DNA from: Chloroflexota bacterium
GTDB taxonomy: Bacteria; Chloroflexota; UBA6077; FW602-bin22; JAMCYS01
DNA: 64,000 nucleotides
Assembly (NCBI GenBank): GCA_023473795.1
Contig: JAMCYS010000086.1
Span: forward strand, 62,001-126,000
Direction of reading: 5' to 3'
Shown here: one piece after another, positions 29,533-58,776 of the stretch
Position numbering within the stretch: the first letter of the stretch is position 1
Layout of the letters: each line of letters opens with the position of its first letter
Notes under the pieces: model-generated
What the model was told of the DNA's origin: nothing
Databases searched by the model: none
What the model saw: the letters and a program-made list of their open reading frames with translations, nothing else
Made by a program: the position numbers and the translations under genes

Positions 29533-29728
29533 CCGTGCCGGCGTTGACCAGTGGACCGGCGTCCCAACTGGCTAGTTCGCGCGGACTAACCTCGACGTGG
29601 CACAGCTAGACCCCGCGTGTGGCCGGGTGTGGCGCTGGCACTTATGCTGTTGGGATTGAACTACCTCGCGGACGCCCTTCGCGAAGATCTCGACCCGCGA
29701 CGCATAAACGTCGCCTGAAGACAGCAAA

Positions 29729-29754
29729 GCGCCCCGGCGAATTCGCCGGGGCGC
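29729..29754 (-). terminator. Terminator downstream of the KGG gene
   Basis: A 26-base perfect palindrome (29729-29754, centre GAATTC) is followed on the minus strand by TTTG. It lies 75 bases past the KGG gene stop. Confidence 0.65.
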
Positions 29755-29828
29755 CTGATCTGAGCCATCAGATGGCTGAACGATCAGCAGGTGCAATTCC
29801 CCTCCTGCATCCAGCCCTGGGCCGCTGC

Positions 29829-35571: not shown

Positions 35572-38064
35572 ATGGGCGGAAGCGAACTGATCCAACATCA
35601 AGCGGTGGCCAGTGAACGTCCTAGGCCCACGTCCCGCCGGCGATTCAATCTGGCCCAGGCCGCGTGGTTGGGCGCGCTGGCGCTTGGCGCCTATCTGCGC
35701 TTCGCCTACATCGAGCTGAGCGAGTTTGGCGTCGACCAGGAGACCGCCCTGCACTACGCCCGCACCGTGCGCCGGGGTTGGGAGTTTCCTCTCGTCGGCA
35801 TGGCCTCCAGCGTGGGCCCGGTGTTCGGCCCCGGCGAATACTACCTGATGGCCCTGCCCCAATTCATCAGCGATAGCCCCGAGCTCTCCATAGTCTACGT
35901 TGGCCTACTGGGGCTCTTCGCCGGGGCTCTGTTCTCGTACCTGGTCTGGCGCCACCTGGGGCGGTTCGAGGGCGTGGTGACCATGGCACTGTTTGCCACG
36001 GGGCCCTGGGCGGTGTATCTCACCCGCAAGATCTGGACGCCGGACACGCTGCCGCTGTTCAGCGCCTTGGCTTTCGCCTGTCTGATCGCCGGCCTGGTGC
36101 GGAAGCGCTGGTGGGGCGTCCCCCTGGCTGCCTTCTGCATCGGCTACGCGGTGCAGGTGCACCACTCCGCCGTTGGCCTGCTGCCCGGTTTCCTATTGGT
36201 GGTGCTGCTGTTCATTCGTCGCCAGCGCCTGTGGCAGACCGCGCTCTCACTTCTCACATTAGCTCTACCGTCGTCTCTCTACGCTTGGCACGCCTGGCAG
36301 GATGGCCCGACCGAACTGATAAGGCTGCTGAACCTCTACGGTAAACCGCCTGACTACGACTTGCGATCTGTCGACCTCGCCCTCAGCCTGCTCTCGGGCG
36401 CCCACTACGTGGACGGTCTCGACGTCTCTTTCCCGCCAGGCGTGGTCGTACCGCAGCTGCCTGGTGTGGTGCTGTTGCTGGGCTTGGCCAGCTGCCTAGG
36501 CCTGGTGGTCGTCGCCTACGACCTCTGGCGAACGCGGTCGCGTGGCCAACTTACCGCCGCCAACGTGGTGCGCGTTATCGCTCTGGTCTGGGTCTTAGTG
36601 CCGCTGGCACTGACCGTTCGGCACTCCTTCGAGCTCTACCTGCGCTACGAGCTGTTCCTCTTGCCGATCGCCTTTCTCTTCCCCGCCGCCGGCCTTACCG
36701 CCCTGGCGCGAATCGCGGCCTGGCTCGGTCGACGATTCTCGTCCCAATCAGTGTCGCCTCAATCCCGATGGGCACTGGCCCTATCGGCAGCCGTGATTCT
36801 CTACGTCGCACTGAGCGGCGCGGTACGCGTCGAGGCAGTCTACCGATCCTACGCCCTGGCCACATTCCCGGTGCTCGGCGGCCCGTACGAATCGACTTCC
36901 CTGCCACTCCTCGGAGAAACGCGCCAGGCGTTCGACCATTTGCAGACCATCGCGGCCCCAGACCGCGACGCGGTCGTGGTCGGCCAGCAGTTTATCACCC
37001 AGCGCGGACCCGTCGAATATCTGAATGACAACCGCTACCGCCTGCGCTTGAGCGATACCGACGAGAGCTTCTTGCTCCCCAACGGCAAGTCCAGACTGCT
37101 ATTCCTGTCCGGCAGCCAATCCGTGGGCAAGCTGGTGGAGATGTTCGGCGGTAAGCAACGCACCGACCTTGAGTTCGGGTGGCCACCGCGCGACGAGAGA
37201 GTGAACGTCTACGATTTGGAGGCACGCAGTCTACCGACAGGCTTCACGACGGTCAAGCCTGGCCAGATCCTGGCCAACGGCCTTGAACTGCTGGCCTATG
37301 GCGCCAATACCACAGATGAGCGCAACGCCGATCTAGTGTCGGTCTGGCGGGTATCTGACGCCGACTTGGCGCTGCGGCCCTACTACTTCTACAACGCGTT
37401 TGTTCACGTTTTCGAGTACCGGGGTCAGCAGGTGGATGTCGGCGGGGAAGCGGAGCTGCCGATGACCGCTCAGTGGCGGACCGGCGACTATGTAGTCGTA
37501 CCGTTCCATCTAACCACGCGAGACCCCCTTGCCCGGGCGCTGTATCGGATCGAAGCCGGCGTCTACGTGCGCAACCCGCCCCGCGCTCCCCTGCCGACTC
37601 TGGCGGGCTCGCTACCCGTGGCCTCGCTGGGCCTCGTTCGCCTTGGCCCCAGCATCCAACCGCTTGCCAACGCGGGCCAGACGGCGGAGTTCGGCAATAG
37701 CCTGCGGCTGGCAGCTAGCTCCGTGTCGCGTGCAGGCAACCTAGTGGAAGCGAGTCTGGTCTGGCAGGCGAAAGCGGCGGTGTCCCAAGACTACACCGTC
37801 TTCGTGCACGTTTACGACCAAGCCGGCCAGCTGGCGGCACAGAGCGACGGCTGGCCGGCAAACGGCAATTACCCCACGTCCGGCTGGCAACCGGGGGAAT
37901 ACGTGGCCGATAAACGGACTGTCAACCTGCCTCCCAATCTCCCGCCTGGGACCTACACGGTCAAGGTTGGTCTCTACGACGCCAAGACGATGGAGCGTTT
38001 GGCGCCGGCACCCGATCACGGCGACCGTGCCGTGGTGATTGGCACCTTCCAGAGCGCCAGATAG
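35572..38064 (+). CDS. GT39-like membrane glycosyltransferase-family protein, copy A
   Basis: 830 residues. About twelve membrane helices (residues 25-430) resemble the PMT/ArnT (GT39, GT-C fold) family, which moves sugars from lipid-phosphate donors. The first extracytoplasmic loop has FGVDQETALHYARTV, the place of the catalytic acidic residue. After the membrane part come two beta-rich modules of about 120 residues. The last has a clear signature: DYTVFVHVYDxxGQLAAQ, GNYPTSGWQPGEYV and LPPGTYTVKVGLYDAKTMERL. ATG 35572 has GAGAAGG ahead. It is the first of four tandem paralogues; the acceptor could be envelope glycans or proteins. The function of the beta modules is not known. Confidence 0.75.
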   Translation: MGGSELIQHQAVASERPRPTSRRRFNLAQAAWLGALALGAYLRFAYIELSEFGVDQETALHYARTVRRGWEFPLVGMASSVGPVFGPGEYYLMALPQFISDSPELSIVYVGLLGLFAGALFSYLVWRHLGRFEGVVTMALFATGPWAVYLTRKIWTPDTLPLFSALAFACLIAGLVRKRWWGVPLAAFCIGYAVQVHHSAVGLLPGFLLVVLLFIRRQRLWQTALSLLTLALPSSLYAWHAWQDGPTELIRLLNLYGKPPDYDLRSVDLALSLLSGAHYVDGLDVSFPPGVVVPQLPGVVLLLGLASCLGLVVVAYDLWRTRSRGQLTAANVVRVIALVWVLVPLALTVRHSFELYLRYELFLLPIAFLFPAAGLTALARIAAWLGRRFSSQSVSPQSRWALALSAAVILYVALSGAVRVEAVYRSYALATFPVLGGPYESTSLPLLGETRQAFDHLQTIAAPDRDAVVVGQQFITQRGPVEYLNDNRYRLRLSDTDESFLLPNGKSRLLFLSGSQSVGKLVEMFGGKQRTDLEFGWPPRDERVNVYDLEARSLPTGFTTVKPGQILANGLELLAYGANTTDERNADLVSVWRVSDADLALRPYYFYNAFVHVFEYRGQQVDVGGEAELPMTAQWRTGDYVVVPFHLTTRDPLARALYRIEAGVYVRNPPRAPLPTLAGSLPVASLGLVRLGPSIQPLANAGQTAEFGNSLRLAASSVSRAGNLVEASLVWQAKAAVSQDYTVFVHVYDQAGQLAAQSDGWPANGNYPTSGWQPGEYVADKRTVNLPPNLPPGTYTVKVGLYDAKTMERLAPAPDHGDRAVVIGTFQSAR

Positions 38065-38117
38065 GCTGATCGACAAGTCTAGGCGTCTTCCGCCTGGTCT
38101 ACGGCTGTCGCCACCAT

Positions 38118-38146
38118 TTGCACACCACCGCTCGTTTGGGTATACT
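38118..38146 (+). promoter_or_regulatory. Sigma-70 promoter of the DUF2892-like gene
   Basis: TTGCAC (38118-38123), a 17-base spacer and TATACT (38141-38146), about 40 bases before the GTG at 38188. Confidence 0.5.
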
Positions 38147-38187
38147 AAAAGCCAGCGTAACCAACAGCTAATTTGCGAGGTGGCAAA

Positions 38188-38403
38188 GTGGCAAGCACAA
38201 TTAGATTCCTGAACAGCTGGGTCGGTCGAGCCGCGCGCGTGGTCCTTGGCCTGGCACTGATCTACTGGGGCTGGTTCCTCAACGGTTCCTCTACCCTCGG
38301 CATTGTGGTGGCAGTGGTCGGTCTGGTGCCGATTGCCATGGCTCTCTGGGGGCGCTGCCTTCTGCAGTTCCTGCCCGGCGGCCGCAAAGCAGGGGAGGCA
38401 TAG
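38188..38403 (+). CDS. Small DUF2892-like (YgaP membrane-domain) protein
   Basis: 71 residues with an amphipathic N-terminus (IRFLNSWVGRAARVVLGLALI) and two membrane helices, ending WGRCLLQFLPGG. This matches the small DUF2892 inner-membrane family, related to the C-terminal domain of rhodanese YgaP. GTG 38188 is preceded by GAGGT at a good distance; an earlier in-frame TTG (38173) lacks one. It has its own promoter and terminator and simply sits between GT39-like copies A and B. The single Cys in GRCLL is typical of the family. Function unknown. Confidence 0.75.
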   Translation: MASTIRFLNSWVGRAARVVLGLALIYWGWFLNGSSTLGIVVAVVGLVPIAMALWGRCLLQFLPGGRKAGEA

Positions 38404-38451
38404 CCAGCAACCCCTGCCGGTAATAGCGTTCTCCCCCGGAAAGCCACAACC

Positions 38452-38480
38452 CGAGCCCTCTCCGCAAACGAGAGGGCTCG
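38452..38480 (+). terminator. Terminator after the DUF2892-like gene
   Basis: The 11-bp stem CGAGCCCTCTC / GAGAGGGCTCG (38452-38462 with 38470-38480) has a 7-base loop, followed by TCCCGTTCT. The poor T-run makes it moderate. Confidence 0.6.
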
Positions 38481-38561
38481 TCCCGTTCTGGCGCCCTTCC
38501 TTGCCGAAGTGCTCATTCACTCCAACCATCCCTTCCCGCAACCGCCGGGCAAGAGGTTCGT

Positions 38562-38590
38562 TTGACAGGCTAGGACAGCTAGGTTAGACT
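38562..38590 (+). promoter_or_regulatory. Sigma-70 promoter of GT39-like copy B
   Basis: TTGACA (38562-38567), a 17-base spacer and TAGACT (38585-38590). The start is near 38597, which supports the TTG start at 38624. Confidence 0.65.
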
Positions 38591-38623
38591 AGCCAGCCGA
38601 GTCCGCCCCGGGGAGGTTGTCGC

Positions 38624-41068
38624 TTGCAGCTGAAGGCAGTCAGCCCTGCGACGACGTCAGCCCACACTCATGGCTTGGCGGCGACGACCTGGCTGGTTCT
38701 TCTGGCGCTGGGTGGATATCTTCGCTGGTCCTACCCACAGCTGACGCTCTTTGGCCTCGACCAACAGACAGTTGTCCACATGGGGCAGGCCATAAGGCTG
38801 GGCTGGGAGCGCCCTCTGGTTGGCGTCACCTCGGCCCTGGGCGCCGTACAGGGCGCCGTCGAATACTACTTAATGACCGTGCCCCAGTTCTTCAGCGACG
38901 CCCCTGAATTCTCGGCCGCCTACGTCGGTCTCCTCGGGCTGCTGGCTGGGGCCATCTTCTCGGCAGCCGTCTGGCGGGTCTTCGGCAAGGGTCTGGCGCT
39001 AGGCGCCTGGGCCCTCTTTGTCACGGGACCCTGGGCGGTGCACTACACCCGCACGATCTGGACTCCGGACACGGCTCCGCTCTTCACGGCGCTGGCCTAT
39101 GCTCTCCTCGTCGCCTCGCTTGCCTATCGCGTGCGCTGGGCCCTGCCGCTCGCCGCCCTGGCCCTGGGCATCGTCGTTCAGATTCACCAGGCTGGCGCAA
39201 TGCTCCTACCCGGCGCCGCTCTCTGTCTGCTTCTCTGCATACGGAGAGTGCGCCCGCTCGAACTGATCGTGGGATTGCTCCTCTTCGCCGCCACCTTCGC
39301 CCCCTGGTTGCTGGGCAACCTGCAGAGGGAGTCGGGCGATCTGCAGCGGCTGCTGAGCGCAGGCAACGCCGAGGCGCAGGTTGACCTACTGGCACCGACG
39401 CTTCTACAGAACTTGGCAGCGGGGGCCGGCTACCCGCTGGCGGGTGGCGCGTTGATCCCCGGCGGGCAGGCCCCACTTGCGTGGCCAGGGTTGACGGAAT
39501 TGTTGGTAGGCGCCTTCTGGCTTGGCGTCGTTCTAGCCGTCTGGCGGGTGGCCAGGGACTGCTGGCGGCGAAGGCTGGAGCCGAGCACCGTGGCCCTGGC
39601 CCTTGCCCTGGGACTGGCAGTGCTACCGGCGGCCATCGACTTGAGGCATTCCGTTTCCTTGTACTTCCGTTACTTCGTCTGCACCTTCCCCGTGCTCTTC
39701 CTCTTCCCGGCGCTGGCTTTCGCCGCCATACCAGGTTGGCTTGCCCGGCTGAGCCCGAGCCGAGGGCGGGTTGCCGGCGAGTGGGCGATGACAGCGCTCC
39801 TGGCGCTGGCGGCGGTGGGAGGCGCCTGGCGGGTAGAGGCTGTGAACCAGGCATTCTTGACCGCCGGGGCGGTCCCAGCGGCGGGACAGAGCGACATGTT
39901 CCCCCTGCCATTCATTAAGGACTCCCGCGTGGCCATGCAGAGGCTCGAGCAGATCGTCTCCGCGGACTACGACACGATAGTCACCGGCTCGGTAGCCCGG
40001 GGGCCGCTTGAGTATCTCGCCGCCAACCGCTACCGCCTGCGCTATATCGACCAGCCGACGATGCTCGTGCTGCCGGTTGAGCGCTCCCGCATGGTGTTTC
40101 TGCCCGATTCCTACTGGGCGGCTGATCTGGCGCTCGCGCTCGGCGGGGTGGAGAACAAGAACGTGGCCCTGCTCTGGCCGCCTTCCGAATTGAAGACTCG
40201 GCTGGTCGACGTCGACCCCGCCCGCGTCGCCATCTCCGATCGCTTCACCAAAGTAGCGCCGGGACAGGTGCTGCCCAACGGGCTGGAACTGCTGGCCTAT
40301 GCCGTGGAGAACAGCACCGCTCGTGGCTGTGACTTGCTGACCGTCTGGCGAGTCGCCAACGCGGAGTGGGCCCACCGCTTCTGGCTCTACAACTCCTTCA
40401 CCCACGCCGCCACGTTGACCGGCCAGCAGGTCGACATCTGGGGCGAGGTCGAGCTGTCCACGTCTTCCAACTGGAAGCAGGGCGACCTTCTGGTCGTACC
40501 CACCAAGGTCGTGGCCCAAAAGGACCTGGCGAGGGGCGGCTACAAGCTCCAGATGGGCGTTTATGTGCGCTTCCCGGCCCGGCAGACGATACCCGTAGAT
40601 CCCGGCGCCACGGAAGTCGTCAGCATCGAACCGGCTCGGCTAGGTCAGCCGACGGTTGCCGAAACGACCAAACCCGTGGCGACCTTCGAGCAGGGCATTT
40701 CCTTGCAGAAGGGCGCCGCCAAGCTGAGCCAGGACGGCAAAAGGGTTGACATCAACTTCGGCTGGCGGAGTGAAGACGGATTGCAGCGCGACTATACCGT
40801 CTTCGCCCACGTCTACGACGCGCAAGGCAAGTTGGTTGCCCAGGCCGACAGCTTCCCGGTAGCCGGCAACTACCCGACGTCCTTGTGGCCGGCCGGCGAG
40901 TACGTGAGCGATGACCGAACGGTCGAACTACAGTCTGCCTTGGCGCCCGGCGACTACACCATCAAGGTTGGGCTTTACGACGCCAAGACCATGCAGCGCC
41001 TTAAACCGGCGCCCGCAACGAGTGACCTGGCGGTGGCGGTCGCCACAATACGGGTGCCAGCAAAATGA
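38624..41068 (+). CDS. GT39-like membrane glycosyltransferase-family protein, copy B
   Basis: 814 residues, the same plan as copy A: roughly twelve membrane helices, then two beta modules. The last module reads DYTVFAHVYDAQGKLVAQ, GNYPTSLWPAGEYV and PGDYTIKVGLYDAKTMQRL, nearly identical in pattern to A. The first-loop motif is FGLDQQTVVHMGQAI, with Gln where A has Glu. I accept TTG 38624 as start: GGGAGG lies seven bases before it and the promoter ends just upstream. Copies A and B are the closest pair of the array. Likely envelope glycosylation; the donor and acceptor are unknown. Confidence 0.75.
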   Translation: MQLKAVSPATTSAHTHGLAATTWLVLLALGGYLRWSYPQLTLFGLDQQTVVHMGQAIRLGWERPLVGVTSALGAVQGAVEYYLMTVPQFFSDAPEFSAAYVGLLGLLAGAIFSAAVWRVFGKGLALGAWALFVTGPWAVHYTRTIWTPDTAPLFTALAYALLVASLAYRVRWALPLAALALGIVVQIHQAGAMLLPGAALCLLLCIRRVRPLELIVGLLLFAATFAPWLLGNLQRESGDLQRLLSAGNAEAQVDLLAPTLLQNLAAGAGYPLAGGALIPGGQAPLAWPGLTELLVGAFWLGVVLAVWRVARDCWRRRLEPSTVALALALGLAVLPAAIDLRHSVSLYFRYFVCTFPVLFLFPALAFAAIPGWLARLSPSRGRVAGEWAMTALLALAAVGGAWRVEAVNQAFLTAGAVPAAGQSDMFPLPFIKDSRVAMQRLEQIVSADYDTIVTGSVARGPLEYLAANRYRLRYIDQPTMLVLPVERSRMVFLPDSYWAADLALALGGVENKNVALLWPPSELKTRLVDVDPARVAISDRFTKVAPGQVLPNGLELLAYAVENSTARGCDLLTVWRVANAEWAHRFWLYNSFTHAATLTGQQVDIWGEVELSTSSNWKQGDLLVVPTKVVAQKDLARGGYKLQMGVYVRFPARQTIPVDPGATEVVSIEPARLGQPTVAETTKPVATFEQGISLQKGAAKLSQDGKRVDINFGWRSEDGLQRDYTVFAHVYDAQGKLVAQADSFPVAGNYPTSLWPAGEYVSDDRTVELQSALAPGDYTIKVGLYDAKTMQRLKPAPATSDLAVAVATIRVPAK

Positions 41069-41140
41069 TTTGGCAGCCCCCAGGCCTGGCTTCGTTGCCA
41101 ACGATCGTCAGGAAGACTTACCAGCGGGCGAGGACAGACA

Positions 41141-43681
41141 ATGCAGGCTAGCTTCACGGCTGATCGACCTACCGCTCGCCCTTCGCTCGGCGCACGCTGG
41201 CGGACCGCCATTACTTACTCCGCGCTGTTGGCGATCCTTGCGCTCGCTCTTTGGCTGCGCTGGGATCGGCTGGACTATATGGAATTCACCCAAGACCAAG
41301 CCTGGCCAATATCGCGTGCCTACGAATGGGTTGCCAACGGCAATTTCCCCCTCCACGGCTACGTCACATCGGTTGGCGGCATGAACGGGCCGATCGAGGC
41401 CTGGCTTCTCGCGTTGCCCATAGCGCTGTCCCACGACCCCCGCATGGCTACAGCTTTCGTGGGTCTTCTGCAGGTGCTGGCCATTGCTGGCACCTTCTTC
41501 CTAGGGCGACGCTATTTCGGCACGACCGCCGGTCTGGTAGCTGCCCTCGCTTTCGCCGTCAACCCCTGGGCACTCGAGTATTCCCGCAAGATCTGGACGC
41601 CTGATATTCTGCCGCTTCTCTCGGTCCTCTTCTTCACGGCCGTCTTCGCCGCCGTCGTGCGGAACAAGCAATGGCACTACTCTCTGGCCATCCTCTGGTT
41701 CGTGGTGCTCTTCTTAGGCCATCCTTCAACGGTCGTGTATGCCCCGATTCTTCTCCTCGCGATGATAGTGGGTTGGCGTAGGTTCGGGCCCAGGCCGCTC
41801 CTGCTTGGCACAGCCCTAGGGCTGCTCACTGCCGCGCCATATCTCTACTCCGATTCGCTGTGGGGCTTCGGCAGCCTGCAAGCCTACTTGAAAGTCGGGC
41901 CGAATTCGTCGTCGTTTGATCTCGAATCATTGAAATACATTCTGACAATGGCCACGGCCCGTTACTTCCCCATCATGATGGGCTTCGGACTGCGGGGCGA
42001 TTGGGTGCTGCCCGACTTAGCTATACAGAACGACATCACTCTGTGGCTGATGCTGACCGGGCTCGGAATCTGCGTTTGCCAGGTAGCGATCCACCTCTGG
42101 CATAAGCGAAAGTTCGATGATGCCGCCAAGAAGTACGGCTTGATCTTGCTTTGGTTCGTGGTGCCACTGGGAGTCTCCCTGCGCCATGCGAACGAGTTCT
42201 ACCCGCACTACTTCATCGCGATCTACCCGCTGCAGTTCATTCTGATTGGTATCACCCTGGCAGTGCCGGGGCAGATTCTGAATCGGGTTGGTCGGCCCAC
42301 GTGGCAGTATCTGCAATGGGCCGGCGCTGGCCTGCTGGGGTTACTGGTAATGTATCTGTCGTTCTCCAACGTGATCTTCTTCCGGACCTATCTCGACTAC
42401 ATTGTCAGTAACGGGCCCCAGGGGCCATATGGCACACCGTTGCTGTACAGCCGGCGGGCCATGGATACCGCTGTCGACTTGAGCCAGCGCTTTGGCGGAG
42501 AAAGAGTGTACGTCTACTCTTACCTCCAGCGTCAGGCCCTGGAATACCTAGCTTGGGACCGGCTGGACCTGAGGTTCGTCGAGCCGCCTGATGCCATGCT
42601 CGTGCCCAACTCCCCCGCTGCCGGCGCGTTGTTCATCCTAGCCTCGGACGAGCTCGGGGGAAGAGATTACCACCTGCTAGACAGCAACAGCCCTATGGTC
42701 TCGCGCCTATTGACAATGGGTTGCCGGGAGGTAGAGGGTGCCGCCGTCCGGGGCCCTGACGGCCACGACTACTACCGGTTCTTTCAGATGCCAGCGGGCG
42801 GCGCCGCGGCCGTGCTGGACAAATTCACTCACCTGAAGGATGGGCCGTCTCTCGCCAACGGCCTGCGCTTGGACGCGTACTCTCTCTCCCCTGCGGCACC
42901 GCCAGGGGAGAGCGCCACTGTCGCTCTAGCCTGGAGTCAATTGGAGACAGTCAAGAGCGACGAGACGCAGTACGTGAACCTGTTCTCCCATCTGGTCGAT
43001 TCGCAGGGGACGGAGATTGCCAGCAGCGACACCGAACTCTTCGAGTACTCGCGCCTACAACCTGACGAGGTTCTGCTCTCCTTCCATCAGGTTGGAGTGC
43101 CGCCCACGGCTGGGCCCGCGCTCGCCTGGTTTGACGTCGGCGCCTACAATCGACTGAATCGCAAGGAGCTTTCTTGGCTGGATGGCCAAGGCAAACCGCG
43201 CAAGGAGCCGGTCAAGATCGGCCCGATCAAGATCGCGCCGCCGCGCCTGGCCTCCCAGCCGGCCAATACGGCCGGCTTCAAGTTTGGCGACAGCCTGCGG
43301 TTGCTGGGCTTCGATGTTCTTCCCCAGCAGGCGACCGCCGGGCAGGAGATGGCGGTGACCCTGCGCTGGCGCGCCCTCGCCCGACTGGCGACAGATTACG
43401 CGGTCTCGGTGCAGATGCTCGACTCCTCCGGCAAGCTGCTAGCCCAGCATGACTCTCCACCCGTGGGCGGCAACTACCCCACGTCGTACTGGACCGAGAA
43501 CGAGGAAATCGTCGACTCGCACCCGATCGTGGTGCCGCCAACCGCGGCCCCAGGCCCCTACCGCATGATCATCGTGGTCTATGCCTCGGACAGCAAGCAA
43601 CGGCTGACTGCCGTTGGCGACGACGGCGCTGCCGCCGATCACGCAACCTTGGGTGAGATTACCGTGGTCAAGGTGCCGTGA
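41141..43681 (+). CDS. GT39-like membrane glycosyltransferase-family protein, copy C
   Basis: 846 residues: membrane part (about 25-420) and two beta modules. The first-loop motif is MEFTQDQAWPISRAYEW. The helices include NPWALEYSRKIWTPDILPLLS, which also appears in A and B in the form TRKIWTPDT or TRTIWTPDT and is a family hallmark. The final module is more divergent (DYAVSVQMLDSSGKLLAQ, GNYPTSYWTENEEIV). GCGAGGA precedes the ATG. The stop overlaps the start of copy D by 4 bases (GTGA), so C and D are translationally coupled. It resembles the broken copy at 49996-51461 in its middle region. Confidence 0.75.
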   Translation: MQASFTADRPTARPSLGARWRTAITYSALLAILALALWLRWDRLDYMEFTQDQAWPISRAYEWVANGNFPLHGYVTSVGGMNGPIEAWLLALPIALSHDPRMATAFVGLLQVLAIAGTFFLGRRYFGTTAGLVAALAFAVNPWALEYSRKIWTPDILPLLSVLFFTAVFAAVVRNKQWHYSLAILWFVVLFLGHPSTVVYAPILLLAMIVGWRRFGPRPLLLGTALGLLTAAPYLYSDSLWGFGSLQAYLKVGPNSSSFDLESLKYILTMATARYFPIMMGFGLRGDWVLPDLAIQNDITLWLMLTGLGICVCQVAIHLWHKRKFDDAAKKYGLILLWFVVPLGVSLRHANEFYPHYFIAIYPLQFILIGITLAVPGQILNRVGRPTWQYLQWAGAGLLGLLVMYLSFSNVIFFRTYLDYIVSNGPQGPYGTPLLYSRRAMDTAVDLSQRFGGERVYVYSYLQRQALEYLAWDRLDLRFVEPPDAMLVPNSPAAGALFILASDELGGRDYHLLDSNSPMVSRLLTMGCREVEGAAVRGPDGHDYYRFFQMPAGGAAAVLDKFTHLKDGPSLANGLRLDAYSLSPAAPPGESATVALAWSQLETVKSDETQYVNLFSHLVDSQGTEIASSDTELFEYSRLQPDEVLLSFHQVGVPPTAGPALAWFDVGAYNRLNRKELSWLDGQGKPRKEPVKIGPIKIAPPRLASQPANTAGFKFGDSLRLLGFDVLPQQATAGQEMAVTLRWRALARLATDYAVSVQMLDSSGKLLAQHDSPPVGGNYPTSYWTENEEIVDSHPIVVPPTAAPGPYRMIIVVYASDSKQRLTAVGDDGAAADHATLGEITVVKVP

Positions 43682-46608
43682 ACCTCAGTCTAACCAGCGC
43701 CAGGCCAATAACGCGCGGCGCCTGGCTCGCCGTAGGGGCAGAGGCAGCGGCCGTTGTTGCCATAGTCGCCGTGGCCTGGGCCCTGCGAGTTTACCGACTC
43801 GACCTCGCCCCTCCCGGACTACACCAGGACGAGGCCATCTACGGCATCCTCGGTCTTTATGTAATGCATGGCAACCACGCGCTCTTCTTCGGCGAGCGCG
43901 AGGCCCTCTTCATGTACTTCATCGCCGCCGCCGTGCGCCTGATGGGCCCGGACGTGATCACTCTGCGTCTGGTGGCGGCGGTCGTCGGCACCGCCACCGT
44001 GCTGCTGCTCTGGGTTGTGGCCCGCCTGATGTACGGACGCAGGGTAGCTTTGCTGGCCGCTGCTGGCCTGGCCGCCTCATATTGGCACGTGACGCTCAGT
44101 CGGGACATCTTCCGCGCCGGCACTCTGCCTCTGTTGGAGTGCCTGGCCTTCGGCTTGCTCTGGGTCTCACTGCGCTCGCGGTCGCGGTGGTTGCGTTTAC
44201 CTGCCTACGCGCTGGCCGGTGGGGCCCTCGGGCTCACCCTTTACACCTACATTGCCGCTCGCGTCGTGCCCGCGGTTGTCCTTCTCTTCTTCGTCGGGCA
44301 GATCCTCTGGGAGAGGCGCGGCTTGCGTCCGGCTTGGCTGACCCTTCCCCTGTACCTTGCTGCCGCCGCGTTGGTCTACGCGCCCCTGGGTTCGCTCTAC
44401 CTGGCCAACCCGGAGAGCTTCCTCGGACGCATGAGTGAGGTTTCCCTGGCGGTAGATCAGGCTAGCGCCACTCCTGTCGGCTACCTGGAGAACCTGCTGC
44501 GTGTGGCAGGGATGTTCTTCGTGGCCGGCGACCAGAACTGGCGGCACAATTTCGACGGGAGGCCGGTCTTCGGCCCCTTCTTCGCCCTGGCCTTCCTCAT
44601 CGGCTTGGCAGTCTGCCTCCGGGGCTGGCGCCGGGGCGAGAACCGGTTCCTGATGCTGTGGGCGGCCCTGATGCTGGCACCGACGGCCGCGGCGACGGAC
44701 GCGCCGCACTACCTGCGAGCAATCGGCGCGGTGCCGGCGCTGTACTTGCTGGCCGCCATCGGCTGGGTGGCCGCTTGGGACTGGGTGCGCCCTCGCTTGG
44801 CAACCAGCGCCCGACCCTGGCGCGCTCTGGCAGGGCGAGCTGCTTTCCCGGCCCTCGTCTCGCTGCTGCTCCTGGTGCCAGCCGGCGTCACGGGCTGGAC
44901 GTACTTCAATCTGTGGTTGCCCCGGCAGGAGACCTACGATGCCTACAACGGGCAGTTGGCAGCGGCGGGAAGGTTCATGGCGGCTTCGCCGGAATGGCGC
45001 GCCAGCGCCCAGAAGAAGCTGGATTTCTTCGTCAGCAGGCGCTTCTGGCAGGACAACCCATCGGTTCTCTGGTACGTTTGGCAGATTCTCTCGGGACAGG
45101 AACGAAACCTTGCCGATAGCCGGCTCGGCTCACCCTGGTTTGACGAGACGCGAGCTCTGCCCTTGCAGCCGGGTGGTGGCCACTACTTGCTTGCCGACGG
45201 CTCCTCCTGGGCAGCCACCGCGTTGGCTCGTTTGTGGCCAGGGCAGGTCACCAGGGAGAATGGGGACGCCGGCCCGGACGGCCGGCCTGCGGTCGTCGCC
45301 TTGCGCGCCCCGGCTTTGCCGCCGCCGGTCGCCGCCGCCCAGCCGCTGGCGTCATTTGGCGGCTGCTTCGAGTTGGTCTCTTACACTCTCTCGCCCAGCG
45401 TGACCTCGGGCGGCGAGGCGGAGCTGGTGACCACCTGGCGGTTGGGCACCCCTCCCGGCTCGTGGCGGCAGCGTGACAGCACGATGACGGTATTCGCGCA
45501 CGTTCTCGATGCGGACGGTTCCTTGCTGACGGGGGACAATGGTCTCGGCTACTTCCCAATCGACTGGCAACCGGGCCAGACACTGCTGCTGCGCCACGTC
45601 CTGCGCCTGCCCGCCGGCACGGCTCCCGGCAAGTACTCGTTGGTGCTGGGTCTGGTGGGACCGGATGGCAAACGGGTCGAGGAAAGCATCGGCCACGGCC
45701 CGGACAACACGCTACGCCTCGAAGCGGCCATCTCGGTGACGGCAGCGACCGAACCGGCGTCCATGCCAAGAGTGAGCCAGCCGGTCGATTGGCCTGCCGC
45801 CGGACAGTTCTCCCTGCGCGGTGTGGACCTCGGCGGCGAAGGGGTGCTGGCGGGCGAATCGCTGCGAGCCCTCCTCTATTGGCAGGCCACCGGCGACGTT
45901 GCCGACGAGTACGATTTGCCGCTGCTTCTGTTGGACGGCAGCGGCAAAGAAGTGGCACGCGACGACGGCCGACCGGCCTTCGGCCGCTATTCCACGTCTC
46001 TGTGGCAAGCCGGGCAACTGGTGCGCGATCCTCGCCAGCTCGCCGTGGGGGCGCGCGTGCGCGCCGGCACCTACACGCTCACCGTCGCAGCCGTGAACCG
46101 CCGTACGGCCGCCAGCACCGCGCCGTTCGCCCTCGGCACCGTGACGGTCAGCGAGCCCGCGCGCACGTTCGCGGCGCCGGCGATAGCGAACCTTCTTGAA
46201 AGGCCAGCCAGCTTCGGCGGCGAGGCCGAGCTGCTTGGTTACGACTCGGACATCGCCACGGCTAAAGCCGGAGGCCAGGCGCACTTCACGCTGTACTGGC
46301 GCGCTCAGGGCGAGTCCGACAAGCGCTACAAGGTCTTCGTGCACGTTCTCTCGCCGGCAGGCAAGGTGGCGGCGCAGTCGGACGCTGAGCCGGCGAACGG
46401 CTCCCGGCCGACGTCCACCTGGGTGCGGGGAGAGATCGTGGCCGACGGCCACACGATTCCTCTGCCCGACAGCCTGTCCAGCGGCGAGTATGCTGTAGAA
46501 ATCGGACTATACGACCCCGCCGACGGCAGCCGCTTGCCGCTACTAGACGCGGCCGGAAAGCAGGTCGATACTCGACTCCTACTGCCGGCCGTTTCCTTCG
46601 GCCGCTAA
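43678..46608 (+). CDS. GT39-like membrane glycosyltransferase-family protein, copy D (three beta modules)
   Basis: 976 residues, the longest of the array. The membrane part has the canonical PPGLHQDEAIYGI first loop with the acidic DE pair expected of active PMT/ArnT-type enzymes. Three beta modules follow instead of two: about residues 560-665, 690-820 and 840-970. The last has RYKVFVHVLSPAGKVAAQ, GSRPTSTWVRGEIV and GEYAVEIGLYDPADGSRL. It starts at GTG 43678 inside the last codons of copy C. The intact acidic pair makes D the best candidate for an active transferase in this set. Substrates unknown. Confidence 0.76.
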   Translation: MNLSLTSARPITRGAWLAVGAEAAAVVAIVAVAWALRVYRLDLAPPGLHQDEAIYGILGLYVMHGNHALFFGEREALFMYFIAAAVRLMGPDVITLRLVAAVVGTATVLLLWVVARLMYGRRVALLAAAGLAASYWHVTLSRDIFRAGTLPLLECLAFGLLWVSLRSRSRWLRLPAYALAGGALGLTLYTYIAARVVPAVVLLFFVGQILWERRGLRPAWLTLPLYLAAAALVYAPLGSLYLANPESFLGRMSEVSLAVDQASATPVGYLENLLRVAGMFFVAGDQNWRHNFDGRPVFGPFFALAFLIGLAVCLRGWRRGENRFLMLWAALMLAPTAAATDAPHYLRAIGAVPALYLLAAIGWVAAWDWVRPRLATSARPWRALAGRAAFPALVSLLLLVPAGVTGWTYFNLWLPRQETYDAYNGQLAAAGRFMAASPEWRASAQKKLDFFVSRRFWQDNPSVLWYVWQILSGQERNLADSRLGSPWFDETRALPLQPGGGHYLLADGSSWAATALARLWPGQVTRENGDAGPDGRPAVVALRAPALPPPVAAAQPLASFGGCFELVSYTLSPSVTSGGEAELVTTWRLGTPPGSWRQRDSTMTVFAHVLDADGSLLTGDNGLGYFPIDWQPGQTLLLRHVLRLPAGTAPGKYSLVLGLVGPDGKRVEESIGHGPDNTLRLEAAISVTAATEPASMPRVSQPVDWPAAGQFSLRGVDLGGEGVLAGESLRALLYWQATGDVADEYDLPLLLLDGSGKEVARDDGRPAFGRYSTSLWQAGQLVRDPRQLAVGARVRAGTYTLTVAAVNRRTAASTAPFALGTVTVSEPARTFAAPAIANLLERPASFGGEAELLGYDSDIATAKAGGQAHFTLYWRAQGESDKRYKVFVHVLSPAGKVAAQSDAEPANGSRPTSTWVRGEIVADGHTIPLPDSLSSGEYAVEIGLYDPADGSRLPLLDAAGKQVDTRLLLPAVSFGR

Positions 46609-48829: not shown

Positions 48830-48842
48830 TATAATGCCACCA
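48830..48842 (+). promoter_or_regulatory. -10 box of a leaderless radical SAM transcript
   Basis: A perfect TATAAT (48830-48835) ends six bases before the ATG at 48842. The normal start point would coincide with the A of the start codon, and there is no SD sequence. The -35 region is not recognisable. Confidence 0.65.
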
Positions 48843-49999: not shown

Positions 50000-51461
50000 G
50001 GCCCGATTTCCACCGTCGGCAACTCCACGAAATCTCCCACAGTCTCTCCGGCGCTGCTGGTGACTTGCAGCCGCCGCACGTCCTGGGGCGTACACATGCC
50101 GACGACAAGCCGATAGCGGCCTGGCCTGAGACCACGCAGGCTGAGGGAGCGGACGTCGGCTACTACCTCACCCGCCTGCCACAAGGAAGTGGGATACTTG
50201 CCGTCGCGAGGAGGACTATCCGTCTGTGCCACTAGCTTGCCGTCCGCCAAAATCTGCACGAATACGGTGTAGTCTCGGGTCGGCGGTCTGGCTGCCCACC
50301 AGTAGAGAGTGGTATCCAAGCACTAGTCTGTAAGCTACGCCTTTGCCAGGTCGTAGCCCAGCAGTTCGACCTCGCCACCCAAGGTAAGGCCGACGCTGCT
50401 GCCGGCTGAAAGCGGCGGGGCCAGATCCGGCGCCACCCCGGCAGCAAAAGGCCCGAGGCGCAGGTCGCCGGAGGCGGGCTGTCCGCGAGCGTCGAGCAGC
50501 TGCGCCGCATCCCGCCGCCAGCAATGGAACATGCCCAGCGACAGCCAGGCCTGCTGGCACTGCAAGTCGCTGGCCGCAGGTAGCTCGCTCCAACTGAGCA
50601 TCACATCGCCTTCGCGCAAGAACTCCATCCGCTCCAGGGTGATGTCGGCGATGGCCAGGTCCTGGCCGGCACTGTCCTGGAGATGCTGGGCAAGGCAGTA
50701 GTTGGGCTCGAACGAGCTACGGTCGGGCGTTCGCCAGACTTCCCAGGCCGCAATCAGGCGCAGGCGGTCTGGCGTGGGTGACCGGGCAGGATACTCCATC
50801 GGGCGAGCCGGAGCCCGTTGTCAAAGCGTGAATAGGGCCCCTCGTTCTGCAGTGTGGACAGTATGCGATCGCGGCCGCCGGCCGGCAAGCGAAAGAAACG
50901 AATCGTGGTCTGCCCTCCCGGCACGACCACGGCCTTGTCCGGCAGCTCCATAAGTCCCAGGTCGGCCAGGCGAGCAGCCTCTAGCGGTCCGCCGAAGGTA
51001 AGCATGTAGAACCGATCGCGGCCCGTTTCAGGGCCGAGTAAGAGCTGCTGGGGCTCGGTCGACTGCCTAACAGGCAGGCCATACGACTCGGCATAGTAGG
51101 CAACAGTCTCCCGCGCGCGCTCGGGGCTCCAGACGTAAAGGGGCTCGCCAGGAGACTCGGCCTGCAATCTGGCCGCCACGGAAAACGCCTGCCTGTAGTA
51201 GGAAGCGGGAATGCCATAGACCTGCTCCAGCCCGTTGCGCTGGATAAGCGCCAAAACGGTGTCATACTGCCAGGCTTGCCCGCCGGCCACCAGCACTACC
51301 GGCAGCGCGATGAGGGCCCAGGAAGTGCTCGCCCGAGCTGCCAGGTGCCCGCGTGCCCACAACCGAGACACGCGCTCGCCCAACCACACCAGCCCCAGGC
51401 CGGCAACTATGAACTGGGAAGGCTGGGTGGCGATCAGGTACCGATGGTAATCCCGTCGATG
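49996..51461 (-). pseudogene. Decayed fifth GT39-like gene
   Basis: Three fragments follow copy C-like sequence in order. 51461-50754: YHRYLIATQPSQF membrane end and the linker to FDNGLRLARW. 50799-50335: the first beta module, one frame away. 50319-49996: the last module, DYTVFVQILADGKLVAQ, GKYPTSLWQAGEVV, GRYRLVVGM. One frameshift lies near 50790. Two in-frame TAG codons (50337-50335 and 50325-50323) separate the last two pieces, which share a frame. The N-terminal ~350 residues with the catalytic membrane region are missing; homology stops near 51461, beside the promoter of the opposite-strand leader. This is a broken relative of the 35.6-46.6 kb array. Confidence 0.82.
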
Positions 51462-51464
51462 CTG

Positions 51465-51591
51465 TGATATAATACTGGTGCAGCAAGAGAATATTGGCTG
51501 GCTGGGGCCTGATGGCTCGGCTGCCGCCAAACTTGCCGGAACGACCCGGCGGAAGGGCTGCCCTCCGGGCAACGGGGGTCGAGCCCTTTTT
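51465..51591 (+). ncRNA. Candidate structured leader / attenuator RNA upstream of the cold-shock gene
   Basis: An extended -10 (TG-A-TATAAT, TATAAT 51468-51473) starts a GC-rich transcript near 51480. It ends in a terminator-like hairpin: AAGGGCT (51553-51559) with AGCCCTT (51582-51588) and a T5 run (51587-51591). A mutually exclusive stem pairs GGCTCG (51514-51519) with CGAGCC (51580-51585), and CGACCC (51542-51547) pairs with GGGTCG (51576-51581). That terminator/anti-terminator layout is typical of riboswitches or attenuators. It matches no RNA family I recognise (not SRP, 6S, TPP, SAM or cobalamin). The downstream ORF starts 93 bases later. Confidence 0.4.
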
Positions 51592-51683
51592 GTTGCACAA
51601 ATACTATGCTGCCGTGTGTTCGCTGAAAATGACTTATCGAACTAACAGGATTGTTGCGCGGTAGCCCTGGAGAAAGGGAAGGA

Positions 51684-52079
51684 ATGAGCGAGCGCTTTAC
51701 GTCGCGGCGTCACTCCCGCAGCGAAGATACCGTATTTCCGCCGACGGCGGCCGAAACTGACTACTGCCCGCCTCACTACTGGGTAATTGAGAAGGGCTAT
51801 CAGTGGTGCCGCAAGTGCGGGGAGCGCAGGGATACTAACGGCGAACGGCCGGGCATGATCGCGGGCGTCGTCACCCGCATCATCACCGAGCGCGGCGTGG
51901 GATACGTAAAGGACAATACCGGGCGGGAGTATTTCTTCAATCGCTCCGGCGTGCGCGACAACGGCTTCGTCGAACTTGTTGTGGGTCAGGAAGTTGAGTT
52001 TGAGCCTGGTTACGGCAGCCAAATGGGTGGCCGAGCGCTGAACGTGCGCATCCTTCCAGCCAAGGTTGTGGCCGAGTAA
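51684..52079 (+). CDS. Zinc-knuckle plus cold-shock-domain protein
   Basis: 131 residues in two parts. Residues ~26-50 hold CPPHYWVIEKGYQWCRKCGERR, a small Cys-rich knuckle. Residues 58-131 form an S1/cold-shock-like beta barrel (MIAGVVTRIITERGVGYVKDNTGREYFFNRSGV...GQEVEFEPG), with RNP1-like GVGYV and RNP2-like YFFNRS. It should bind single-stranded nucleic acid. I prefer ATG 51684 (GGAAGGA just before); 51651 is an earlier in-frame start. A structured leader precedes it and a terminator follows. Most cold-shock proteins are about 70 residues and lack the knuckle. Confidence 0.75.
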   Translation: MSERFTSRRHSRSEDTVFPPTAAETDYCPPHYWVIEKGYQWCRKCGERRDTNGERPGMIAGVVTRIITERGVGYVKDNTGREYFFNRSGVRDNGFVELVVGQEVEFEPGYGSQMGGRALNVRILPAKVVAE

Positions 52080-52108: not shown

Positions 52109-52144
52109 AACGCGGTCAAGCTTGCAGGCGGGCTTGACCGCGTT
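52109..52144 (+). terminator. Terminator of the cold-shock-domain gene
   Basis: AACGCGGTCAAGC (52109-52121) pairs with GCTTGACCGCGTT (52132-52144), followed by TTG. It lies 30 bases past the stop. Confidence 0.85.
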
Positions 52145-52305
52145 TTGTGTTGACTGTATACTACTGATGCTTACGAGTTTCGCCGGTCGGATATGTAGTC
52201 GGGGACTGAATGGCTTGTCCCTTGCCAGCCAACCACCTCCTTCAATTGTCTCGCTGACGAATGCTCCGCGGCAATACTCGTCTCGTAAGGAGTCAGCCCA
52301 AGAGT

Positions 52306-52635
52306 ATGCCCGACAAGACCCTGACCTGCCGCGACTGTGGCCGTGAGTTCGAATTCTCCGCCAGCGAGCAGGAGTTCTACGCCCAGAAGGGCTTCACGAA
52401 CGAACCGAGCCGCTGTCCGGAGTGCCGCTCGGCCCGCAAGGCGCGCACGGGTGTCACCGCCAGCAGCGGCGCCTCGCGCCAGCAGCGGGAGATGTTCCCC
52501 GCCGTGTGTTCTCGCTGCGGCAAGGAGACGATGGTCCCGTTCCAACCTCGGACCGACCGGCCGGTCTATTGTTCAGACTGCTTCGCGCTGGAGCGAGGGA
52601 CCGCCCCGAGGCGCTCCTCTCCCTCCCGCTGGTAA
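52306..52635 (+). CDS. Small zinc-ribbon protein (zf-trcl type, two ribbons)
   Basis: 109 residues with two zinc ribbons. CRDCGREFEFSASEQEFYAQKGFTNEPSRCPECRSARK near the start fits the probable zinc-ribbon (zf-trcl) family, and CSRCGKETMVPFQPRTDRPVYCSDCF is a second CxxC...CxxC unit near residue 65. A flexible Ser/Ala linker joins them. Such proteins are common in Chloroflexota and candidate phyla and may bind nucleic acid or partner proteins; no function is established. ATG 52306 is chosen because the zinc-ribbon family begins MPDKTLTCRDCG; the longer frame from 52261 is unlikely. Confidence 0.82.
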   Translation: MPDKTLTCRDCGREFEFSASEQEFYAQKGFTNEPSRCPECRSARKARTGVTASSGASRQQREMFPAVCSRCGKETMVPFQPRTDRPVYCSDCFALERGTAPRRSSPSRW

Positions 52636-58284: not shown

Positions 58285-58701
58285 TTGGTCGTAGAGCAGC
58301 ACAAGGGCTACGCAATCGTTCGCCCATCCACCAAGTTCATCTCCAAACAAGGCCTGACCAACTTTCTCGGCCTCTCCGGCGAAAACGTGGGCGCCAAGGG
58401 GCTGTGCATGAACATAGTTGTTATCCCCCCGGGCAAATCGGCCGAGCCGCACTGCCACGAATCGGAGACGGCCATTTACGTCATGCAGGGCACGATAGTC
58501 ACGCGATTCGGGGAGGGTCTGCAGGAGGAGGCCGAGACCTGCGAGGGCAGTTTCCTCTATATCGGCCCCTACACCTGGCACCAGCCAGTCAACCGTTCCG
58601 ACAGGGAGGCGGTGGCGATCATCGCTCGCAACGATCCGAACGAGCAAGAGCACGTGATCCCCTACACTGGCCGGGAGAAGAGCACGGTGGGGCAACCCTA
58701 G
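58285..58701 (+). CDS. Cupin-domain protein (start uncertain)
   Basis: A single-domain cupin beta-barrel of about 138 residues. The metal-binding motif 1 is PGKSAEPHCHESETAIYVMQGTI and motif 2 is LYIGPYTWHQPVNRS, with the expected His/Glu ligands. The preceding KFISKQGLTNFLGLSGENVGAKGLCMNIV strand is typical of the cupin group with a WxxP-type ending. The frame is open back to 58087, but that part is low-quality sequence. TTG 58285 with GGGGG in front is my choice, though no start is convincing. A strong terminator follows. Function unknown; members include small-molecule dioxygenases and isomerases. Confidence 0.75.
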   Translation: MVVEQHKGYAIVRPSTKFISKQGLTNFLGLSGENVGAKGLCMNIVVIPPGKSAEPHCHESETAIYVMQGTIVTRFGEGLQEEAETCEGSFLYIGPYTWHQPVNRSDREAVAIIARNDPNEQEHVIPYTGREKSTVGQP

Positions 58702-58717
58702 CAGTGCTCAATTCGCG

Positions 58718-58752
58718 AGAAAGGGCCGCGGCGACCCGCCGTGGCCCTTTCT
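58718..58752. terminator. Bidirectional terminator between cupin and hcp
   Basis: AGAAAGGGCC (58718-58727) pairs with GGCCCTTTCT (58743-58752) around an inner CGGCG/CGCCG stem. A-rich on the left and T-rich on the right, it can serve both converging genes. Confidence 0.8.
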
Positions 58753-58776
58753 GTTTCGTGCTCTCCCCGCAGGAGT

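Follow-up and report, generated by a model that had tools for sequence, protein, structure and literature searches.

A candidate transcription attenuator before a cold-shock-domain gene and a conserved hairpin at a neighbouring zf_Tbcl gene in Chloroflexota

Attenuator leaders and the cold-shock-domain gene

Leaders of the Escherichia coli cspA type place a long, structured 5′ untranslated region (UTR) before a cold-shock-domain gene and act on stability and translation. Intrinsic-terminator attenuator leaders, such as those causing premature termination in E. coli 5′ UTRs, show the order promoter, structured leader, terminator and gene. To our knowledge, transcription attenuation in Chloroflexota is poorly mapped. 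Cold-shock proteins (Csps) can act on termination itself: PMC9765468 reports that E. coli CspD lowers intrinsic termination, and it cites other Csps as reducing termination at metY-rpsO.

In the window, the whole 64,000-nt stretch of Chloroflexota DNA analysed here, a promoter and an intrinsic terminator lie on the same strand upstream of a gene for a cold-shock-domain protein, in the same order as in the attenuator leaders. Compared with these, the leader is without a recognised aptamer, leader peptide or protein site, it is a single occurrence, and its termination is predicted. As in cspA, the gene has a long structured 5′ UTR (about 204 nt), whereas the leader differs in having a terminator calculated to stay paired over a wide temperature range. 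A cold-shock-domain protein could weaken this terminator too, as CspD does at small RNA terminators; however, the E. coli Csps act in trans on other genes (PMC9765468), whereas here only gene order suggests a role for a Csp. With moderate confidence, we regard the element as a transcription attenuator, a leader in which premature termination probably controls the cold-shock-domain gene by setting how many transcripts read through.

Promoter, terminator and leader fold

The extended −10 promoter element TGATATAAT (51465–51473, + strand) was identified by exact string match and promoter score, exactly where a first-pass annotation had placed a TG-A-TATAAT promoter. By a simple promoter score with textbook weights, the promoter at 51468 is matched or beaten by 0.007% of sampled genome positions. 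The transcription start is predicted at 51480 (+), 7 nt past the −10 element, from standard sigma-70 spacing. The string TGNTATAAT occurs twice in the window (0.11 expected) and 16 times in a 459-kb sample of this genome made up of the window and 20 stretches (395 kb). Each of the 16 sites is followed within 350 nt by the start of a frame with 70 or more codons, and a terminator follows within 260 nt downstream at only one of them, the 51465 promoter; simple arithmetic gives a chance expectation of about 0.24 over the 16 sites. The promoters of two neighbouring genes (51468–51481 and 52157–52170, +) have TATAmTACTGrTGC in common. As a genome motif, the likeness of TATAATACTGGTGC (51468) and TATACTACTGATGC (52157) was rejected, with 25 matches at up to two mismatches versus 34 for a control pattern. 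Elsewhere in the window, a TATAAT 6 nt 5′ of the ATG of a radical-SAM/HHH gene (48830–48842, +) resembles a leaderless transcript.

About 80 nt beyond the promoter, a terminator scan found an intrinsic terminator (51553–51591, +), composed of a hairpin at 51553–51588 (−21.9 kcal/mol) and a T-run at 51587–51591. The stem AAGGGCT (51553–51559) with AGCCCTT (51582–51588) and the following five T residues were thus correctly located at first pass. Terminator-like hairpins number 59 in 459 kb on both strands together (0.064 per kb per strand), and this one is near the strongest 5% of them. A further 95 nt lead to the cold-shock gene (51684–52079, +), which has a ribosome-binding site just upstream and its own terminator by the same type of scan (52109–52144, +). 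The gene encodes a 131-aa protein, initially described as a zinc-knuckle/cold-shock protein, with a C-x-x-C N-terminal part and a probable cold-shock domain, whose PF00313 match (E 1e-5, 25.7 bits) is just below the gathering score of 27. No close relatives of the protein were found in genome-contig and viral-contig collections. Of 400 phylum genomes, 30 have matches at E ≤ 1e-8, mostly confined to the cold-shock domain; the source genome is one of the 30, and the best match outside it has E 1.7e-13. No strong second promoter was found in the interval between terminator and gene, where the best site is equalled by 9% of random 86-nt windows. As only this weak promoter-like site lies in between, the transcript of the cold-shock gene most likely starts at 51480 and runs through the terminator. 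The order of promoter, leader and terminator before the cold-shock gene, as read from the DNA, is unlikely by chance; therefore, of the first-pass wording "riboswitch or attenuator", the second term is a fair reading.

In the attenuator model, transcription would begin near 51480, and the first ~110 nt would fold into three hairpins, the last of which is the intrinsic terminator. Many transcripts would then stop at about 51592, and the fraction reading through would set the expression of the gene at 51684. A single-strand-binding cold-shock-type protein would be a likelier regulator of read-through than a small ligand, and indeed the likeliest one; it may be the protein that the gene itself encodes, which would give positive feedback.

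The leader RNA (51478–51598, 121 nt) has a predicted fold of −65.7 kcal/mol with three hairpins, namely P1 (51494–51530, +), P2 (51533–51552, +) and the terminator, and its ends are joined by an 11-bp closing stem, P0, between 51478–51488 and 51588–51598 (+; computed duplex energy −16.0 kcal/mol), a feature missed at first pass. The fold is more stable than all of 500 shuffles (z −4.48) and, in a repeat, all of 200 (z −4.36). The value is about −2.2 for bases 51480–51594, with P0 left out, and −2.6 for the reverse strand. Of 5000 flank shuffles, 0.16% match the energy of P0, a stem spotted post hoc; among genome segment pairs with this geometry, the share is 9% when they are unselected and 0 of 38 when GC content is matched. 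The leader fold alone is not exceptional, because an optimised scan for local folds across the window places the element 26th of 153 structures. Two stronger local folds lie at 58647–58765 (z −6.7), overlapping the end of a gene together with its terminator-like hairpin, and at 29690–29824 (z −6.8).

Relatives of the leader and competing explanations

Searches of 29 genomes of the class and 400 of the phylum gave no homologous leader, and therefore there is no sign of selection on the leader structure; the best reading is that the leader is lineage-specific. In agreement with the earlier view that it fits no known RNA family, the Rfam 15 covariance models gave no match above gathering score and nothing beyond noise at E up to 10. 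The weak partial matches to M23, Lambda_thermo and Guanidine-II (15, 13.4 and 10.7 bits) are far lower than the respective gathering scores of 41.2, 50 and 32. A bacterial small SRP RNA was rejected, as the SRP RNA of this genome sits on another contig (C47, 72.4 bits). A repeat or mobile copy was also rejected, with no second DNA copy in the genome at E ≤ 10 except short matches, as were terminal inverted repeats of a mobile element, a candidate prompted by P0, for which no second copy was found. Among 61 genomes, the leader DNA gave short matches only, at five loci besides itself, judged on inspection to be chance pieces. A single-sequence covariance model of the leader, R1, was run on the 400 phylum and 29 class genomes. 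It matched 20 of the 400 at E ≤ 1 (best other 9.1e-4) and 9 of the 29 at E ≤ 5 (best other 1.0e-3), the window's own genome included in each count. The matches were rejected as homologues, since the alignments inspected contain many non-standard pairs and the best of four ORF-listed loci sits within a coding frame; those outside the own genome are judged to be chance.

The first-pass annotation had described two mutually exclusive structures with the standard wiring of an RNA switch. The alternative stem does exist and overlaps the terminator: its 5′ strand (51514–51522, +) partners with 51577–51585, GGCTCG (51514–51519) pairing with CGAGCC (51580–51585), so that bases 51582–51585 are common to both stems. 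Mutual exclusivity, however, is at chance level. The terminator-free fold has −51.2 kcal/mol versus −55.7, a gap of 4.5 kcal/mol. When the terminator was fixed and the 73 upstream bases were shuffled, the gap was equal or smaller in 64.6% of 2000 shuffles. The terminator 3′ arm was captured as fully in 26%, and as fully with an equal or smaller gap in 20%; a 6-bp Watson-Crick match to this arm arises in 23.5% of 2000 shuffles. In equilibrium folding, the pair probability of the alternative stem is 0.00 at 4–60 °C and 0.001 at 70 °C, and the calculated terminator pairing probability is 0.87–0.91 across 4 to 70 °C. Bistability and thermometer behaviour are therefore unsupported by calculation, as the gap is at chance, the alternative stem is near zero and terminator pairing is steady; a ligand or protein might still drive switching. 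The leader lacks the marks of a true two-state RNA switch, and the suggested temperature response is not borne out for the leader alone, which was rejected as an RNA thermometer.

The main rival to the attenuator, which we consider unlikely but deserving of serious weight, is an independent gene for a small RNA of ~115 nt, which would have a promoter and terminator to itself and ends protected by P0, the cold-shock gene being merely downstream. The RNA is bracketed exactly by promoter and terminator, P0 starts at or beside the predicted start site, and the fold z of −4.4 to −4.5 fits such a molecule; however, the cold-shock gene would then be left without a second strong promoter, and neither a homologue nor a second copy was found.

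Upstream of the promoter lies a 5′-truncated, frame-broken remnant of a glycosyltransferase-like gene (50047–51449, −), recognised by homology to an intact 870-codon frame at 41069–43678 in the window. We take the remnant to be membrane glycosyltransferase-like; a Pfam scan of the remnant piece gave no match. Its relatives lie at 35611–46569 in the window and comprise, in addition to the 870-codon query, two long matches and some partial ones near 45350–46570. As the homology begins at 51449, only 16 nt away from the promoter, promoter and cold-shock gene lie at a rearrangement junction, and they may have been joined recently. This neighbour bears on a distinctly unlikely second alternative, an unregulated promoter and terminator, either as a leaky terminator that lowers expression or as a by-product of the rearrangement in which the neighbour was truncated and this junction formed. 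Such a reading would suit the chance-level bistability, the broken remnant ending so close to the promoter and a leader found nowhere else searched, but it fits poorly with the rarity of a terminator after such a promoter (1/16) and with the strong sense-strand fold.

Translation-coupled attenuation is very improbable. A ribosome on a putative 50-codon ORF (51512–51664, +) would cover the terminator and cause read-through, and the frame is indeed open through the entire terminator, with its end 19 nt before the start codon of the cold-shock gene; however, its GGGG ribosome-binding site is weak, its start codon lies partly in the P1 hairpin loop, and 50-codon frames are common in GC-rich DNA. 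Least likely is the proposed ligand-binding riboswitch with 51514–51585 as aptamer and anti-terminator, for which one can draw a compact three-way fold and the alternative closing stem but which has the chance-level energy gap, the absence of Rfam matches and of detected conservation in the searches above, and a non-metabolic downstream protein against it.

A hairpin at the zf_Tbcl ribosome-binding site

The gene next after the cold-shock gene (52306–52635, +) has zf_Tbcl and zf_Tbcl_2 domains by Pfam, and all 29 class genomes contain this family, many of them with several copies. The hairpin GCGCUGAC...GGAGUCAGCG is found at the ribosome-binding site of many zf_Tbcl members, with a lower stem extending toward or over the start codon; in the window it lies at 52245–52305 (+). 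In an alignment of 32 sequences, 9 of 14 pairs vary on both sides, and the covariation score is 0.224 versus 0.148 when shuffled (0 of 500 as high), counts that are biased toward the stem because the sequences were picked from 45 candidates partly for having it. The covariance model of the hairpin, R2, matches 34 of 89 zf loci on the gene strand at E ≤ 1e-4, of which 29 are training members; at loci outside the selection (L156, L160, L161, L162, L165 and L166), five of six match at the same threshold. Over 578 kb (the window, background stretches and cold-shock-gene loci), the only significant R2 site is 52245–52305, a training member. R2 gave no match to the cold-shock leader, where its best score is 3.7 bits.

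A scan of genome contigs for the exact hairpin core returned at least 119 stretches, and 80 were examined among the matches listed. Thirteen of these 80 are records titled Chloroflexota or its classes, and in nine of the 13 the hairpin lies 5′ of a zf_Tbcl-like gene (four) or a DEAD-box helicase gene (five, one with a zf-like N-terminus). None of the other 67 matches listed has the hairpin before a zf_Tbcl-like or DEAD-box gene, two of them having too little flank. The helicase loci come from other Chloroflexota (L264, L275, L290, L303 and L310). Pfam found DEAD and Helicase_C domains in all four of the five helicases scanned, and also zf_Tbcl_2 in one. The nine records are not all independent: L249, for one, has the same leader as L162, from a class genome already in the sample. 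With these records included, 11 of 14 pairs vary on both sides among 21 distinct sequences (score 0.262 versus 0.131). Rfam gave no match in eight such hairpin loci or in the window, and no description of the hairpin was found in the titles and abstracts of the literature searched. A table in PMC2864571 includes a Chloroflexi-1 RNA. The zf_Tbcl hairpin is a stronger RNA candidate than the cold-shock leader and looks like a translational control element; a role in autoregulation or in the cold response is the obvious guess.

An improbable scheme joins the two elements. The end-closed 121-nt lineage-specific RNA would be an autoregulatory attenuator, in which the zinc-knuckle/cold-shock protein melts the terminator of its own leader, and together with the hairpin at zf_Tbcl and DEAD-box ribosome-binding sites it would make two RNA controls in one Chloroflexota RNA-chaperone (cold-shock) regulon. 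If the attenuator before the cold-shock-type gene is real, it would provide a direct test of autoregulation by terminator melting. The occurrence of the hairpin at the starts of both zf_Tbcl genes and DEAD-box helicase genes suggests that RNA-chaperone genes in Chloroflexota are under a common control.
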